From assembly GCA_035532835.1 (NCBI GenBank), contig DATKQG010000098.1:1-36774 (forward strand): 36,774 nucleotides of DNA, in the 5' to 3' direction. Origin of the DNA: Candidatus Dormiibacterota bacterium. Its GTDB lineage: Bacteria > Vulcanimicrobiota > Vulcanimicrobiia > Vulcanimicrobiales > Vulcanimicrobiaceae. A program made the translations under genes and the position numbers. Positions 1,182 to 31,102 of the stretch are shown piece after piece; position 1 is the first letter of the stretch; each line of letters opens with the position of its first letter. The notes under the pieces were generated by a model that saw only the letters and a list, made by a program, of their open reading frames with translations, did not search any database and was not told the origin of the DNA.

Positions 1182-3227
1182 TCACGATCCCACCAAGTCT
1201 TTCAGGGCCGAGTTGAAAATCTTCGGGGCTTTCCCTTGGAACAGGACGGACTCGTTGCCGCCGATCTGTTTGCGCAGTTCCAATAATTCGTCGCGGAGCG
1301 CCGCGGCTTTCTCGAACTCGAGGTTGCCGGCGAACTCGCGCATCTTCTGCTCGATCTCGGCGGCCATTTTCATCGCCACGTCGCGCGGCAATTTATCCAG
1401 CTTGAGCTGGGCGGTCGCCTCCTCGGTCGCGCCGATCATGCGCAGAATGTCGTGGATCTCCTTGCGAATCGTCGTCGGCTCGATACCGTGCGCCAGGTTG
1501 TGCGCGACTTGCCGCTCGCGGCGTCGCTTCGTTTCGCCCAAGGCTCGCGCCATCGATTCGGTGATCACATCGGCATACATGATGACTTTGCCGTCGACGT
1601 TGCGCGCGGCGCGCCCGATGGTTTGAATCAGCGAGGTCGTGCTCCGGAGATACCCTTCTTTATCCGCATCCAAGATGCCCACGAGCGAAACTTCCGGTAA
1701 ATCCAAGCCCTCGCGCAAGAGATTGATGCCCACCAACACGTCGAACACGCCGAGCCGAAGATCGCGCAGAATCGCAATGCGTTCGAGCGTATCGACCTCG
1801 CTATGCAGGTAGCGTACTTTGAAGTTCATCTCCAGCAAGAAGTCGGTGAGATCCTCGGCCATCTTCTTGGTGAGGGTCGTCACCAGGACGCGCTCCTTGC
1901 GTTGCACGCGCAGCCGAATCTCTTCCATCAAGTCGTCCACCTGGTTGCGCGTCGGCCGAACGTCGACTTCGGGATCCACGAGGCCGGTCGGGCGAATGAT
2001 CATCTCGGCCACCTGCGTGCTGCGGCCGACTTCGTACGTGCCGGGCGTTGCCGATACGTAGACGACCTGATTGATGTGCGCGTCGAATTCGTCGTACGTC
2101 AGCGGGCGGTTATCGAGGGCGCTCGGCAGGCGAAACCCGTGCTCGACCAAGATCTGTTTGCGCGCACGATCGCCGGCGTACATCGCATGCGCCTGCGGCA
2201 GGGTGACGTGCGATTCGTCGATGAACAGCAGCCAGTCTTTCGGAAAGAAGTCCAGCAAACACGACGGCGTGGAGCCCGGCTCGCGCCCGGTAAGGTGCCG
2301 CGAATAGTTCTCGACGCCATTACAGTAACCGACCTCGCGCAGCATATCCAGATCGTAGCGCGCGCGCTGCTCTAAACGCTGCGCCTCCAGCAGCTTCCCA
2401 TGCGCTTTGAAGTATTTGAGCCGCTCTTCGAGTTCGGCCTCGATCGAGATGACCGCACGGCGCAGTTTTTCATCCGGCGTTATGAAATGCTTGGCGGGAA
2501 AAATGTGGAGCTCGTCCTTGCTCTGGACGTATTCTCCGGTCATCAAATTGACGACGTTGATCGCTTCGATTTCGTCGCCGAAGAACTCGATCCGATGGAC
2601 CAGCTCCTCGTCGACCGCGACAAATTCGAGGACGTCGCCGCGCACTCGAAACGTCCCTCGGACTAAATTCAGATCGTTGCGGCGATACTGCATGTCGACG
2701 AGTTGCCGTAAAAAGGCGTCTCGGTCGAGTTCGTCCCCGACCGCGATGCGGGCCGACATCTCCATGTAGTCCGAAGGCGAGCCCAAACCGTAGATGCACG
2801 AAATCGACGCGACGATCAGCGTGTCGGGGCGGGTGAGCAGCGATTGCGTTGCCGAGTGGCGCAAGCGTTCGATCTCGTCGTTGACCGAACTATCCTTCTC
2901 GATGTAGGTATCCGTCGAGGCGACGTACGCTTCGGGCTGATAGTAATCGAAATACGAAACGAAGTACTCGACCGCGTTGTTGGGAAAGTACTCGCGAAAT
3001 TCGGCGCAGAGCTGCGCCGCCAGGGTTTTGTTGTGGCACAGGACCAGCGTCGGCTTCTGGACGAGTTCGATAGTCCGGGCCATGGCCATCGTCTTGCCGC
3101 TTCCGGTGACGCCCAGCAGCGTTTGGGCGCGATCGCCCCGCGCGATCCCCTCAGCGAGGATCGCGGTAGCGACGGGTTGGTCGCCCGCCAGAGCATACGG
3201 GGAGACGAGTTCGAAGCGTTGGGCCAT
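1182..3227 (-). CDS. uvrB: UvrABC excinuclease subunit B
   Basis: This 681-residue protein has the usual UvrB length and architecture. The helicase-like N-terminal domain has Walker A GVTGSGKT at 39-46. The damage-probing beta-hairpin region follows ([15 protein letters not shown], about 88-102), then the helicase motifs [15 protein letters not shown] and QTIGRAARN. The C-terminal UVR coiled coil that contacts UvrC is present ([18 protein letters not shown]). UvrB receives DNA lesions from UvrA, verifies damage and recruits UvrC for dual incision in nucleotide excision repair. It is the first gene of a minus-strand run that continues into the exported protein and GH38 mannosidase. It is divergent from prs. 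The minus strand has TATAGC ending only 5 nt before the ATG, so a leaderless or very short leader is possible, but I see no convincing -35. Confidence 0.98.
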
Positions 3228-23989: not shown

Positions 23990-24062
23990 GCGGTCCAATG
24001 GGCCGGTCCATTACATAGTCCGCCACCATCCATTTTTAACTGTCGATCGAGAGGAGCCGTCC

Positions 24063-25373
24063 GTGAGTACCATAGAGAACCGCGCCGCATCGCTCAAAGC
24101 CGCCTGGGCAAACGATACCCGCTGGAGCGGCGTCGAGCGCCGTTACAGCGCCGAAGAAGTCGTTCGCCTTCAGGGGAGCGTCGTCGTCGAACAGACCCTG
24201 GCGCGGCTGGGTGCCGACCGGCTCTGGAGCCTGCTGCACGAATCCGCCGCCACCGCGGCGCTGGGCACCATGACCGGCGGCCAGGCGGTCCAAGCCGCCA
24301 AGGCCGGCCTCAAAGCGATCTACTGCAGCGGCTGGCAAGTCGCCGCCGACGCCAACGTCTCGGGCAACGTCTACCCGGACCAAAGCCTCTACCCGGTCAA
24401 CAGCGTCCCGACGCTGGTAAAGCGCATCAACAGCGCTCTCCAGCGCTACGACCAAATCGAGACGGTCGAAGGACACGGCGGGGAAGAACACTACCTCCCG
24501 ATCGTCGCCGATGCAGAAGCCGGATTCGGCGGCGCGCTCAACGTGTTCGAACTGATTAAGGCCCTCATCGAAGCCGGTGCCGCCGGCGTCCACCTCGAAG
24601 ACCAGTTGAGCTCCGAGAAGAAGTGTGGACACTTGGGAGGCAAGGTGCTGATCCCGACACAACAGGCGGTTCGCCATCTCGTTGCGGCCCGACTGGCGGC
24701 CGACGTCTTGAACGTGCCGACCATCATCATCGCGCGCACCGATGCGGGAGCCGCGACGTTGATCACCAGCGATATCGATCCGGTCGATCGCGCCTTCATT
24801 ACCGGCGATCGCACGGCCGAGGGATTCTTCGTCACCAAACAAGGCATCGATGCGTGCATCGCGCGTGGTTTGGCCTACGCGCCCTACTGCGATCTGCTCT
24901 GGATGGAAACGTCGGAGCCCAATATCGAGGAAGCACGCGCGTTCGCGCAAGCCATCCACGCGAAGTTCCCGGGGAAACTGCTGGCATACAACTGCTCGCC
25001 GTCGTTCAACTGGAAGAAAAAACTGGACGAGAGCGCGATCGCAACCTTCCGCGAAGATCTCAATGCCATGGGATACAAGTTCCAATTCATCACGCTGGCA
25101 GGCTTCCACGCGCTCAATTACAGCTTCTTCGAACTAGCACGCGATTTCAACGCTCGCGGCATGTCGGCGTACGCCGAATTCCAGCAGTCGGAATTCCGCA
25201 GCGAGGAGTTCGGTTATACCGCAACGCGTCATCAGCGCGAAGTGGGGACCGGTTATTTCGACGAGGTCGCGCAAGTCGTGAGCGAAGGGCTCTCGTCCAC
25301 CACGGCGCTCAAAGGCTCGACCGAGACCGAGCAATTCTACGAGAACGGCCATCGCGAGCACGCTCACGCATGA
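24063..25373 (+). CDS. aceA: Isocitrate lyase
   Basis: The enzyme splits isocitrate to glyoxylate and succinate, the first step of the glyoxylate shunt. I place the start at GTG 24063 because AGAGGAG lies a few bases upstream and the product (436 aa) has the normal ICL length. An in-frame ATG at 23964 lies at the predicted transcription start and would add 33 atypical residues. Motifs include [29 protein letters not shown] (split over about 72-105), ADAEAGFGG, and the catalytic KKCGH with Cys188, then [15 protein letters not shown] and GMSAYAEFQ. aceB follows with an ATGA overlap. Confidence 0.96.
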
Positions 25374-26875
25374 ACTTCGCACCAGCCGGCTTTGCAATCG
25401 ATCGCGACCTGCCAGCCGGGTTCGCAGAGTTCTATCGGCCGCTGCACGAGCGTTTTACGCCCGAACAGCAACGCTTAGCGCGCGCGCGGGCCACCCGGCT
25501 CGCGCGCTCGCACGCGGGCGAATTGCCGACGTATGCCGCACCATCCGAGGCCACAACCACGGCATGGCAGATCGAACTCCCCGAGTGGTGCCGCGATCAA
25601 CGTAACCAGATGACTGGGCCCGCAGACGATGCGGAACTCGTCGTCAAGATGATCAATTCAGGCGCTCCCGGCGTGATGCTCGATCTCGAAGACTCGATGG
25701 CCAACACCTGGGATCACCTCATGCTCGGGCACGCAAATATCGTGCGCGCGCTCTATGGCGAACTCACCTACGAAGATCGTAAGCGCGGAGGCACCGTCGG
25801 CATCAAGCCGAGCCCGACGGTAGTTTGGAACCGCGTCCGCGGGCTGCACATCTCGCAAGGGGGTATATTCGAAGACGCCCTGACGAGTGCGTCACTCTTC
25901 GACGTCGCGCTCCTGGCATACAATCTCGATTTCGAGCGCCTGCGTCATCCACTCTGCATCTACATTCCAAAATCGGAAGCGGCCGACGAAGCGTTCTGGT
26001 GGCGCGATCTCTTTGGAGCGTTGATCGCGGCAAAGGGATGGAAGCCGGGATCGATTCGCGCGATGGCGCTAGTGGAATCCCATCCCATGGCGTATGCCAT
26101 GGAAGAATTTCTCTTTAACCTGCGCGAGTATATCCTAGGGTTGAACTTGGGCCGCTGGGATTACATGGCGAGCTTGATTCACTTCAACCTGCACGATCCG
26201 CAGTGGTTGCTGCCCGACCGCAACACGATTCCGCTCGACATTCCGTTCTTCCAAAACTTGCGGACGTTGCTCCCGGATACTACGCACAAGCACGGAGCGC
26301 TCGCGATCGGCGGCATGACCGCACTCTATCCCAGCCGCGAAGATCCCGAACTCAACGCGCGGGCGCTGGCCGTCCTCGAACGCGATAAAAAGAACGAAGC
26401 GTCGTGCTTCATGGACGGCGCGTGGACCGGCCACCCGGACCAAAACGCGATCGCCGTCGCGCAATTTCCCGCCCCGAATCAGTTGGATCGCCGCCCCCAT
26501 CTCGACGATCCGCACCCCGATTTGCGGCCATCGCCCAAGGGTGTCGGGTCGACCACGCTCGAGGGCACCCGCGCTGCCGTGCGTACGGTCATTCGCTATC
26601 GCAACGGCGTGCTCGAAGGCCGGGGCGCCAGCCTCCTCGACGGCTATATGGAAGACCTCGCGACCGATCGCATCTATCGCCTGATGATCGCGCAGCGCGT
26701 GCGCTTCCCGGGCGCGTACACGCCGCCGTCTTTAGGGGGCCTCTTCGACGAAGAGCTCGCCCGCATCGTTGCGGAGTTGCCGGCCGGAACCGACGACGCG
26801 ACGAAATTGCGATATCGCAAGGCTCGCGATCTCTCCGAGCAGATGATCGCCACCGGAGCATTCGATCCCACATAG
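25370..26875 (+). CDS. aceB: Malate synthase A
   Basis: Condenses glyoxylate with acetyl-CoA to malate, completing the glyoxylate shunt with the upstream isocitrate lyase. Starting at ATG 25370 (overlapping the aceA stop), the protein is 501 aa, within the usual range for the A isoform. Motifs include [15 protein letters not shown], the RGLHI segment with catalytic Arg, [51 protein letters not shown] and [12 protein letters not shown]. The C-terminal plug region has [19 protein letters not shown]-like sequence with the catalytic Asp in MED. A hairpin follows 11 nt after the stop. Confidence 0.96.
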
Positions 26876-27624: not shown

Positions 27625-27639
27625 GTCCCGCTCGTCCCA
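27625..27639 (+). promoter_or_regulatory. Candidate LytTR operator upstream of lytS
   Basis: The 15-mer GTCCCGCTCGTCCCA lies 6 bp before the -35 of the lytS promoter. The identical 15-mer occurs at 29505-29519, upstream of the GT39 gene. It contains an internal direct repeat (GTCCC, 9 bp apart). LytTR regulators bind short direct repeats just upstream of core promoters, so this is a likely autoregulatory site of the adjacent response regulator. Confidence 0.55.
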
Positions 27640-27645
27640 GAGCGG

Positions 27646-27675
27646 TTGACAGCGCGTGCGGCCTTTCGTTATGAC
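27646..27675 (+). promoter_or_regulatory. Promoter of lytS with probable leaderless start
   Basis: TTGACA (27646-27651) and TATGAC (27670-27675), spaced by 18 bp, form a good sigma70-type promoter. Transcription would begin about 7 nt after the -10, at 27682, which is the A of the lytS ATG. No Shine-Dalgarno precedes that ATG. The mRNA is therefore probably leaderless. Confidence 0.6.
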
Positions 27676-27681
27676 GGTGCT

Positions 27682-28749
27682 ATGAAGAACCTACGGATAT
27701 ACGGGCTCTTCGCGCTGTTCACCGCGATCGGGTTGCTCTTCTTCAGCTACCATTACCTCAACGATCTTGCCGACGGGGTCCACGGCACCGCTCCGCAACG
27801 CTTCATCGAGGAAATGACCGGGGCGTATGCGGCACTTGCCCTGGTGCCGTTCGTCGCCTGGGTCGTCCGCACGTTTCCGTGGTCGCGCGATCGCTGGTAC
27901 GGGGCCCTCCTCGCGCAACTCGCCGGCGCTCTAGGTTTCTCCGTCGCGAAGACGACGCTCCAGGAAATCAGCCGCACGCTCCTCTTTGCGGCCTCGGGAT
28001 TGGGACACTACAACTACGGCAACATGCTCTATCGCTATCCGATGGAGTTTTCGAACGATATCGTCGTCTATGCGGTGATTGCCGGCTGCATCTATATCAT
28101 CGCTCGCATCTCGCTGGCGCGCGCGGCCGAATTGCGGGCCTCCGAGCTCCAGGTCGCGCTCGCGCAGGCGAAACTCGAGAATCTGCGGCTCCAACTCCAC
28201 CCGCACTTTCTGTTCAATGCGCTCAACGCCATCTCTTCGGTCATGTACGAGGACGTCGGGAAGGCCGACGCCATGCTCGCGCGGCTGAGCGATTTTCTGC
28301 GCGTTATTCTCTCCTCTGCCGAAGCGCCCGAAGTCTCGCTCGAGCGCGAATTGGAGATCGAGGGATTGTACCTCGACATCATGAAGGCGCGCCTGGAAAA
28401 CACATTGCGCCTGAACGTTCGCATCGAAACCGGAGCCAAGAACGCGCGCATTCCGGCACTCCTCCTGCAGCCCATCATCGAAAATGCGATTCGTCACGGC
28501 ATGAGCGACGCCCGCACCGCGCTGGAGGTCACCATCGAGGCCGAGCGCGTCGACGAGCGAACGCGCGTCCGAATTCGAGACAACGGGGTGGGCCCGGGCC
28601 CGCATCGCCGTGCGGGACACGGGCTCGCGAACGTCAGCTCTCGCCTTTCGCTATTGTTCGGCGACTCGTGCGAATGCAGCATCGGCGCACACGATGCCGG
28701 CGGCACGATCGTCACCCTCTCGTTTCCGTACCGGCACGCGGACGCATGA
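27682..28749 (+). CDS. LytS/YehU-type membrane sensor histidine kinase
   Basis: 355 residues from ATG 27682. The N-terminal half has four or so membrane helices (about 5-22, 48-63, 73-90, 127-145). A short coiled segment leads to the His_kinase domain of the LytS family, with phospho-acceptor His175 in QLHPHFLFNALNAISS. The ATPase domain has LLLQPIIENAIRHG (N box), IRDNGVGPG (G1) and GHGLANVSSRL (G2). It phosphorylates the LytTR regulator encoded immediately downstream, whose ATG overlaps its TGA. The ligand is unknown; there is no extracytoplasmic sensor domain beyond the membrane helices, so the signal is probably within the membrane or envelope. Confidence 0.93.
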   Translation: MKNLRIYGLFALFTAIGLLFFSYHYLNDLADGVHGTAPQRFIEEMTGAYAALALVPFVAWVVRTFPWSRDRWYGALLAQLAGALGFSVAKTTLQEISRTLLFAASGLGHYNYGNMLYRYPMEFSNDIVVYAVIAGCIYIIARISLARAAELRASELQVALAQAKLENLRLQLHPHFLFNALNAISSVMYEDVGKADAMLARLSDFLRVILSSAEAPEVSLERELEIEGLYLDIMKARLENTLRLNVRIETGAKNARIPALLLQPIIENAIRHGMSDARTALEVTIEAERVDERTRVRIRDNGVGPGPHRRAGHGLANVSSRLSLLFGDSCECSIGAHDAGGTIVTLSFPYRHADA

Positions 28750-29504
28750 TTCGCGTCATCATCGCCGACGACGAAGCACCGGCGCGCCGCAAGCTGCAGC
28801 GCTTTCTGCGCGAGCAACGCGACATCGTCGTCTTCGCAGAGGCGGCCAACGGAAACGAAGCCATCGAGCTAGCGAGGGCGCACCATCCCGACCTCCTCTT
28901 GCTCGACGTACAGATGCCGGATATCGACGGCATCGAAGTCGCGCTCGCGCTTGCGCGCGGCGAGCATATGCCGCACATCGTCTTCGTTACCGCGTTCGAT
29001 CACTACGCCGTGCGCGCATTCGAATTGAGCGCCATCGACTATCTCTGCAAGCCCTTCGATCGCGAACGCTTCGACCGGACGATCGAGCGCGTTCGCGCCG
29101 CGCAACGGCGGAGTGAAGGGCCGGCCGATCAAGGCGAACTCAGCACGAAGCTGGAGAGCATGCGGCAACCCGGAACGCATCTCAAGCGGTTGCTGGTCCC
29201 CGACGGCGACCGTTCGTTCTTTGTCGCCGTAAGCGACATCGCGCGCTTGGAAGCGGATCGGAATAACGTCATCGTGCATGCACGGGCGGGATCCTTTCCC
29301 ATACGCGCCACGTTAGAGTCGCTCGAAGAGCGCCTCGACCCGCAGCAGTTCGTGCGCGTCCACCGCTCGCATATCGTCAACATCGACGCGATCAAAGAGG
29401 TACAGCCGTGGTTTCACGGCGATCAGCAGATCGTCTTGCGCGACGGCTCGACGCTGCTCTGGTCCCGGCGTTTCGCCGGCCGCCGGCCGGACATCCTCAC
29501 CTAA
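28746..29504 (+). CDS. LytTR-family response regulator
   Basis: 252 residues. The receiver domain (1-120) has ADDE at 7-10, the phospho-acceptor Asp54 in LLLDVQMPDIDG, the switch Thr in FVTAFD and the Lys in LCKPFD. A linker leads to the LytTR DNA-binding domain (about 148-248) with DIARLEADRNNVIVHA, LESLEERLDPQQFVRVHRSHIVNI and a C-terminal IVLRDGSTLLWSRRF. The gene is coupled to the kinase gene by an ATGA overlap. Matching repeats upstream of lytS and downstream at 29505-29540 suggest it controls its own operon and the GT39 gene. Confidence 0.95.
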   Translation: MIRVIIADDEAPARRKLQRFLREQRDIVVFAEAANGNEAIELARAHHPDLLLLDVQMPDIDGIEVALALARGEHMPHIVFVTAFDHYAVRAFELSAIDYLCKPFDRERFDRTIERVRAAQRRSEGPADQGELSTKLESMRQPGTHLKRLLVPDGDRSFFVAVSDIARLEADRNNVIVHARAGSFPIRATLESLEERLDPQQFVRVHRSHIVNIDAIKEVQPWFHGDQQIVLRDGSTLLWSRRFAGRRPDILT

Positions 29505-29540
29505 GTCCCGCTCGTCCCAACGCCGGGCCCGTTCGTCCGC
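29505..29540 (+). promoter_or_regulatory. Tandem candidate LytTR site upstream of the GT39 gene
   Basis: CCCGCTCGTCCC (29507-29518) and CCCGTTCGTCCG (29528-29539) match in 10 of 12 positions and are exactly 21 bp apart, two helical turns. LytTR regulators typically bind two direct repeats with this period. The downstream copy lies 54 nt before the GT39 ATG, almost the same as the 55 nt for the copy before lytS. A weak -10 (TACATC, 29570-29575) places transcription start at the ATG 29582. Confidence 0.6.
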
Positions 29541-29581
29541 GATCGATAGCATCGGCGCCCGATATCGCGTACATCTAGGAT

Positions 29582-31102
29582 ATGAGCAAGCATCGCCTCC
29601 CGCTTATTGCCGCGATCGTAGCCTTTTTAATACACCTCGTTGGAAACCCGCACTACGGCTTCTTTCGCGACGAACTCTACTTTATTATCTGCGGCCGGCA
29701 CCCGGCGTGGGGATACGTCGACCAACCACCGGTCGTCCCGTTACTCGCCGCCGGGTCGCAACTCTTCGGCCACTCCCTCCTGCTTCTGCGCGCCGTTCCG
29801 GCGCTGTTTAGCGGAGCGAGCATGTACGTCACCTGTCTCCTCGTTGCGGAAATGGGCGGCGGTGCCTTCGCCCAGATGTTGGGCGCGCTCGTCGCGTTTT
29901 TCTGCCCGGTGCTCATGAACTTCGGGATGAAAGCCTCCACCGATATGCCCGGCTTGGTGTTGTGGCCGCTGGCGGCGCTGTGGATTTTGCGGCTCACGCG
30001 CGGCGCCGACCCGCGCCTCTGGCTGGCAGCCGGCGCCGCGTTAGGCATCGCCTTCGAGAGTAAGTATAGCGTCCTATTTTTCGCAGCCGCGATGCTGATC
30101 GGTTTATTGCTGACGCCGCAGCGGCGCATTCTCCGCACACCCTGGTTTGCCGCAGGCGCCGCGCTCGCAATTGCCATCGCCGCGCCGAACGTGATTTGGC
30201 AAGCCGTTCACGGCTTCCCGATGTATACGCTGCTCGAAAATGGGGCACACGGGAAAAATCTGGCGGTCGGTCCGCTCGTATATCTGCTTCAGGAAATCCT
30301 CATCACGAATCTGTTTCTCGCGCCCGTCTGGATCGTCGGCCTCGTCTATCTCTTTCGCACGCAAACGCTGCGCTTCTTCGGTTACGCCTACGTCATGCTG
30401 ATCGCGATGATGATCGCGCTGCACGGTAAGCATTACTACCCGGCCGATATCTACCCGATCCCGATCGCGGCCGGAGCCGTGGCGATCGCCGGATGGATAG
30501 AGCGCCTCGTGGCCATACGCACCGTCGTGTTGGCGTACGCCGTCATCGGCGGCCTCGCGTTCTTGCCGTTCGCTCTGCCTATACTGCCCGAGACGCAGAT
30601 GCTCGCCTATCAGAGCGCGCTGCTTAGCGCGCTGCATCTCCAGCGCCATACGCTCGCAACCGAACGGCATCGGCAACAGCCGCAACTTCCGCCGGATTGG
30701 GCCGATATGCACGGATGGCCGCAGTTGGCGTATGACGTCCGACGCATCTACGATGCGCTGCCGCCGGCCACTCGCGCCCAAACCGTCGTCATGGCCCAGA
30801 ATTACGGGCAGGCGAGCGCCATCGCGTTCTTCACTCCCAGCGTTCCGGTGGCCAGCGGACACAACCAGTACTGGTTGTGGGGAGCGCGCGCCATTCGGCA
30901 GCATCGTCTGACGGGCGAGAACGTGATCGATCTCGGCGGGGATTGCGGGCGGAGCCGGCATCTCTTCGAGAGCGTCGAGCGCGTGGGGACGTTTAGCGCA
31001 CCATACGCCATGCCGAGCGAGAACAACCTCCCGATCATGCTCTGCCGGCACCTGCGCGTACCGATCGCGCAGCTCTGGCCTCATTTGCAAGAGTACATTT
31101 AA
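29582..31102 (+). CDS. GT39/PMT-family membrane glycosyltransferase
   Basis: 506 residues with about ten membrane helices and a C-terminal soluble domain (about 355-506). The family's catalytic acidic pair lies in the first extracytoplasmic loop (HYGFFRDELYFIICGRHPAWGYVDQPPVVPLL, read in parts, about 21-53). GMKASTDMPGLVLWPL and AFESKYSVLFF follow the usual PMT_2/ArnT pattern. Such enzymes transfer a sugar from a polyprenyl-phosphate donor to protein, lipid or polysaccharide on the outer face of the membrane. Donor and acceptor are unknown. It follows the two-component pair and a tandem repeat site, so it is a likely regulatory target. Its stop overlaps that of tag by 4 nt on the opposite strand. 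Confidence 0.88.
   Translation: MSKHRLPLIAAIVAFLIHLVGNPHYGFFRDELYFIICGRHPAWGYVDQPPVVPLLAAGSQLFGHSLLLLRAVPALFSGASMYVTCLLVAEMGGGAFAQMLGALVAFFCPVLMNFGMKASTDMPGLVLWPLAALWILRLTRGADPRLWLAAGAALGIAFESKYSVLFFAAAMLIGLLLTPQRRILRTPWFAAGAALAIAIAAPNVIWQAVHGFPMYTLLENGAHGKNLAVGPLVYLLQEILITNLFLAPVWIVGLVYLFRTQTLRFFGYAYVMLIAMMIALHGKHYYPADIYPIPIAAGAVAIAGWIERLVAIRTVVLAYAVIGGLAFLPFALPILPETQMLAYQSALLSALHLQRHTLATERHRQQPQLPPDWADMHGWPQLAYDVRRIYDALPPATRAQTVVMAQNYGQASAIAFFTPSVPVASGHNQYWLWGARAIRQHRLTGENVIDLGGDCGRSRHLFESVERVGTFSAPYAMPSENNLPIMLCRHLRVPIAQLWPHLQEYI

Follow-up and report, generated by a model that had tools for sequence, protein, structure and literature searches.

A LytS/LytTR two-component system predicted to control its own operon and a neighbouring membrane glycosyltransferase gene in the Vulcanimicrobiaceae

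The window, by which we mean the whole 36,774-nt stretch of DNA analysed here, encodes a LytS/LytTR two-component system that very probably has a very small regulon, consisting of its own operon and the neighbouring gene for a PMT_2-family membrane glycosyltransferase. The genes, the half-sites of the candidate operators and the predicted promoter elements are as follows.

27682-28749, + strand: lytS, LytS-type histidine kinase, 355 aa (His_kinase PF06580, E 1.4e-20; HATPase_c)
28746-29504, + strand: lytR, response regulator with receiver and LytTR DNA-binding domains, 252 aa (PF00072, E 2.6e-25; PF04397, E 2.5e-25; both above cut-off)
29582-31102, + strand: PMT_2-family membrane glycosyltransferase, 506 aa, predicted target (PF13231, E 3e-21)
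27628-27636, + strand: lytS half-site CCGCTCGTC, within the first 15-mer (27625-27639); same position relative to the -35 in other lytS promoters
27646-27651, + strand: predicted lytS -35, TTGACA, 9 bp past the half-site (16-promoter alignment)
27670-27675, + strand: predicted lytS -10, TATGAC, after an 18-bp spacer, ATG 6 nt on (leaderless; promoter alignment)
29508-29516, + strand: distal PMT_2 half-site CCGCTCGTC, within the second 15-mer (29505-29519); from the exact pair search
29529-29537, + strand: proximal PMT_2 half-site CCGTTCGTC, 21-bp period; pair present in 8/8 loci with a free lytR-PMT_2 gap
29547-29552, + strand: PMT_2 -35 position, TAGCAT, a poor match (alignment; TTGCCN or TTGCGG in 6 of 9 aligned)
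29570-29575, + strand: predicted PMT_2 -10, TACATC, ATG 6 nt on (leaderless; promoter alignment)

The first-pass annotation had pointed to an identical 15-mer, GTCCCGCTCGTCCCA, at 27625 and 29505, and to a related half-site exactly 21 bp downstream of the second copy. Both are present: the copies at 27625-27639 and 29505-29519 are exact, the first starting 3 bases past the stop of the upstream gene and the second directly past the lytR stop, and the related half-site lies at 29529. The near-constant distance to the start codon also holds: from the first base of the half-site to the ATG it measures 54 nt at lytS and 53 nt at the PMT_2 gene. Only exact matches to the 15-mer are meaningful, because at up to 3 mismatches the window holds 4 matches against 2.7 expected. 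Its 13-base core, GTCCCGYTCGTCC, has exactly two copies in the 2.89 Mb genome, both at this locus, and the genome scan for pairs that the annotation had proposed returns the exact arrangement CCGYTCGTC-N12-CCGYTCGTC once, at 29508/29529. On its own, the 9-mer CCGYTCGTC is no rarity: the two strands of the window together hold 8 exact copies, 5 of which lie away from the lytS and PMT_2 promoters. What counts is pairing or promoter context.

LytR orthologues (E <= 1e-60) occur in 18 of the 99 genomes of the family, and the closest among named records, at 94 percent, belongs to a Candidatus Eremiobacterota assembly. lytS and lytR occur together in all 18, and the PMT_2 gene adjoins them in 16, the exceptions being G011 and G073. 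Upstream of lytSR, in the window (24057-26875) as in the majority of genera that carry the system, lies the putative aceA-aceB pair, an isocitrate-lyase-like and a malate-synthase-like gene.

First, a half-site precedes lytS in 16 of the 17 loci that could be assessed. Among the 18 loci, one is cut by its contig (G071) and one (G113) has no site because lytS overlaps the preceding gene and has no promoter, the occurrence of CCGCTCGTC there falling inside the lytS coding sequence; the 16 aligned promoters come from 10 genera. They share a geometry of half-site, 9 bp, a -35 element (mostly TTGACN), 17-18 bp and a -10 element (mostly TATGAN), and the exact 9-mer was found upstream of lytS in 15 of 15 tested regions, against 0.1 expected in all of them from shuffles. 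One period (21 bp) further upstream, C, C and G occupy the first three columns in 14, 13 and 14 of the 16 rows. The window's genus is among the exceptions: its lytS has a single clear half-site, with TGGCCGATT 21 bp upstream (27607), unlike several relatives in which a second half-site is recognisable at that position. In G067, the distal half-site alone is intact, and the proximal one, exactly 21 bp downstream, is degenerate.

Second, wherever the PMT_2 gene has a promoter of its own, whether linked or moved, a half-site pair with a 20-21 bp period stands before it (9/9). This includes all eight loci in which a free gap separates lytR from PMT_2 (G000, which is the window's genome, G001, G111-G114, G016 and G002), where the period is 21, except for 20 in G112, one half-site has one mismatched base in each of G111, G113 and G114, and shuffles gave the pair in 0 of 2,000 trials each. 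The half-sites of the pair are separated by 12 nt in the window, as they are in 7 of 8 adjacent PMT_2 promoters, and by 11 nt in G112 and before the displaced gene of G011. The distance from half-site to -35 is 9 bp throughout the 16 lytS and 9 PMT_2 promoters listed, although in G000, G001 and G002 the PMT_2 promoter has no recognisable -35, the three hexamers at that position being poor.

Third, the family supplies natural controls, in which the gene is fused to the operon, has moved away or lacks the regulator. Where PMT_2 abuts lytR (G030, G091, G033, G096, G092, G071, G067 and G026), the pair is absent in 8 of 8; counted by genus, the site is present before free-gap genes in 5/5 and before operonic genes in 0/5 (p 0.008), a comparison in which a short gap has no room for a site in any case. 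The PMT_2 gene of G011 is unlinked (C8) and still carries a pair (20-bp period) and promoter. Among the 81 genomes without a LytR match, 17 returned a PMT_2 locus, and none of the 17 has an exact half-site within 260 nt upstream. One of these genomes, G060, has a lytR remnant and was omitted from the Fisher test (0/16 LytSR-negative PMT_2 genes). In its locus (L256), a LytTR C-terminus is fused in sequence to a hydroxyacyl-CoA dehydrogenase-like stretch before PMT_2, probably through misassembly. Per-genome counts are not independent, since the genomes are related. In the PMT_2 tree, site-less copies from LytSR-negative genomes stand next to copies that bear a site: G035 next to G111/G112 and, both with modest support, G105 next to G002 and G010 next to G000/G001. 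In G073, no linked PMT_2 copy was found; its unlinked copy has no site and clusters with the second PMT_2 copy of G067, an unregulated one (support 100/100).

Fourth, the strict pattern CCCGYTCGTCMCN7TTG tracks the regulator. It has 21 exact matches in the 99 genomes, 16 in the 18 LytSR-positive and 5 in the other 81, and its reversed form has 4 in all 99; genomes with a match number 11/18 against 5/81 (Fisher 7.5e-7, relatedness ignored). Within the LytSR-positive set, 15 of the 16 matches lie at predicted promoters, namely those of lytS, PMT_2 and two further genes of G011, and the remaining one (G016:C16) is coding; three of the five in LytSR-negative genomes were read and all three are coding (G084 and G121 are not among these). 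Looser patterns do not discriminate, as both the pair with one mismatch, often in coding sequence, and the relaxed promoter pattern match in 57 of the 99 genomes. A wider regulon was also sought in G000 with pairs at 1-2 mismatches, 13-mer variants and promoter patterns, which gave no convincing extra site; the two near-matches inspected, on C53 and C78, are inside coding sequence. The two further G011 sites (L260, about 3118-3161, and L261, about 2445-2487) precede Acyl_transf_3 and DUF5916 genes and may represent a regulon expansion in that genus. At E 1e-30, no homologue of the acyltransferase turned up in the remaining 17 LytSR-positive genomes, and among 19 DUF5916 upstream regions read, an exact half-site at the promoter position occurs in one only, that of G011.

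The alignments also predict two leaderless promoters in the window. An in-frame start lies 6-7 nt past the -10 in 19 of the 25 promoters, and therefore the distance from half-site to ATG is a constant 53-55 nt in those 19; in the other six the start lies 10-13 nt past the -10. Leaderless promoters may be common throughout the clade: among 301 other genes of the loci, which come from 265 sources, TA stands 6 nt before the start codon in 21, against a background of 8.8 (s.d. 3.4), a count suggestive at most, as a different offset (21 nt) also reaches 20.

The predicted target had been labelled GT39. A membrane glycosyltransferase it is, by its domain, but the name is loose: the Pfam family is PMT_2, and the predicted GT-C fold is nearest to ArnT. 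The protein model (pLDDT 76) has ArnT as its best PDB matches in Foldseek (5f15/5ezm, E about 1e-6, TM about 0.55). The model shares the GT-C fold with ArnT, at 16 percent sequence identity, and a PDB sequence search with the protein gave no match. The modelled ArnT-like fold denotes the GT-C class and says nothing on substrate.

Taken as sequence features, the sites, their spacing, their conservation and their co-occurrence with LytSR are established, and a mechanism can be proposed on them. On a signal, LytS would phosphorylate LytR, which would then bind the 9-bp half-sites CCGYTCGTC, observed usually as a head-to-tail pair with a 20-21 bp period, the proximal half ending 9 bp before the -35. 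Provided that transcription starts where predicted, the pair is centred near -60, from where LytR would most likely activate RNA polymerase; we infer activation because the half-sites lie upstream of the -35 and the promoter elements are poor. The targets would be the lytSR operon itself, in a putative positive feedback, and the PMT_2 membrane glycosyltransferase, which presumably takes a sugar from a polyprenyl phosphate and attaches it to a component of the envelope. Each of the two transcripts probably starts at the initiation codon or no more than a few bases from it; this would fix the distance from half-site to ATG at about 54 nt. Autoregulation together with control of the neighbouring glycosyltransferase, the reading first put forward for this DNA, is thus well supported by genome comparison, in which sites are kept before lytS (16/17) and before PMT_2 genes with their own promoter, the moved G011 gene included. 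PMC6222199 concerns an OmpR-family case and does not enter the argument.

A more elaborate reading, which we consider unlikely, makes the system a metabolite switch: LytS, like BtsS, would sense a small carboxylate and, through a leaderless LytTR promoter, turn on an enzyme of envelope glycosylation; in the genus of G011 the regulon would have grown to an acyltransferase and a DUF5916 protein. Its context is the linkage of lytSR to the glyoxylate-shunt genes aceA-aceB in most genera. It is also unlikely that the sites are real operators read differently, either by another regulator or by LytR as a repressor. The window's genome does encode a second LytTR protein (G000:C75), which could in principle read them, and sequence alone does not settle whether LytR activates or represses; against this, the C75 locus has no CCGYTCGTC pair at a 20-22 bp period, the strict pattern follows LytSR over the 99 genomes, and the half-sites lie upstream of the -35 and -10 and do not overlap them.

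That the 15-mers are the scar of an insertion, a target duplication or attachment ends left when lytSR landed between two genes, is very improbable. The copies are identical and flank lytSR, and in several LytSR-negative genomes (for example G010, G074, G075 and G103) PMT_2 directly follows the malate-synthase-like end. We nevertheless reject this origin as largely refuted, because the second copy is itself paired and at promoter spacing, the site is missing where PMT_2 is operonic and present before the unlinked gene of G011, and the surroundings of the core vary between genomes while the -35/-10 spacing is constant. Chance recurrence of a GC-rich word, or scattering of the motif through coding sequence, which the first-pass annotation had named as fatal to its proposal, is partly true of the bare 9-mer, some of whose eight window copies are coding, and of relaxed patterns, but has a negligible probability for the operators, being refuted by the shuffles and by a promoter geometry conserved across 10 genera.

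Outside the family, no exact pair was present at any of the 12 loci from other taxa that hold LytR relatives (L064-L075); within the phylum, 7 lesser relatives (L041-L047) likewise lacked it. A repeated CCGTTCGCC occurs in L071, distant from lytR, and sites near the Lysobacteraceae and Mizugakiibacter relatives were rejected as lying in coding sequence. A membrane acyltransferase-looking gene follows the LytSR relative in the Lysobacteraceae genome (L064, 6116-7519), and a similar sequence follows lytR in Mizugakiibacter (L065, about 1300-1560), recalling the G011 acyltransferase target. A literature search for LytTR in Eremiobacterota found no paper, and one for any two of LytTR, glycosyltransferase and Eremiobacter had none on such a system among the matches listed. 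For an almost unstudied phylum, the present proposal supplies a regulator together with its operator and target gene.

Among known systems, BtsS/BtsR and YpdA/YpdB of E. coli likewise join a LytS-type kinase to a receiver-LytTR regulator. The BtsR motif is close to ACCGCTCA repeats with a 13-bp spacer, and LytR scores 180.9 bits against the NCBIfam model of BtsR (PRK11697), below its cut-off of 246. The target of the E. coli systems is a transporter, in contrast to the glycosyltransferase here; YpdB has a single target gene, according to the account in PMC4847170. BtsS and YpdA are described in PMC5552118 as carrying 5TM-LYT and GAF domains, whereas the window's LytS has no match to 5TM-5TMR_LYT (PF07694) or GAF, only His_kinase and HATPase being found up to E 10, and its N-terminal part has no recognised sensor domain. 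The AlgR core of Pseudomonas, CCGTTCGTC, equals the proximal half-site at 29529, but AlgR sites, according to PMC4064291, need not be direct repeats with 12 bp between them, in contrast to the 20-21 bp period here. The operators of the HdrR/BrsR type (PMC6193735) share with ours 9-bp direct repeats with a 12-bp spacer (11 in a few), placed just upstream of the -35 of the regulator's own operon; the regulator's partner there is a membrane inhibitor, as in LytTR regulatory systems (LRS) generally, whereas LytR has a receiver domain and is partnered by a LytS-type histidine kinase. LytTR operators are summarised in PMC4847170 as two repeats of 9-11 nt with an 11-13 nt spacer, and those of LRS in PMC6193735 as repeats of 9 bp whose spacing is mostly 12 bp, which tend to lie 10 bp before the -35 and which drive positive autoregulation; the window's repeats agree in repeat length (9-11 nt), spacer (11-13 nt) and placement about 10 bp before the -35. 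The principle of a LytTR regulator acting on 9-12-9 repeats beside a -35 is already known, and the present system is of a known kind because its layout is that of a textbook LytTR operator, with 9-bp repeats, a 12-bp spacer and about 10 bp to the -35.
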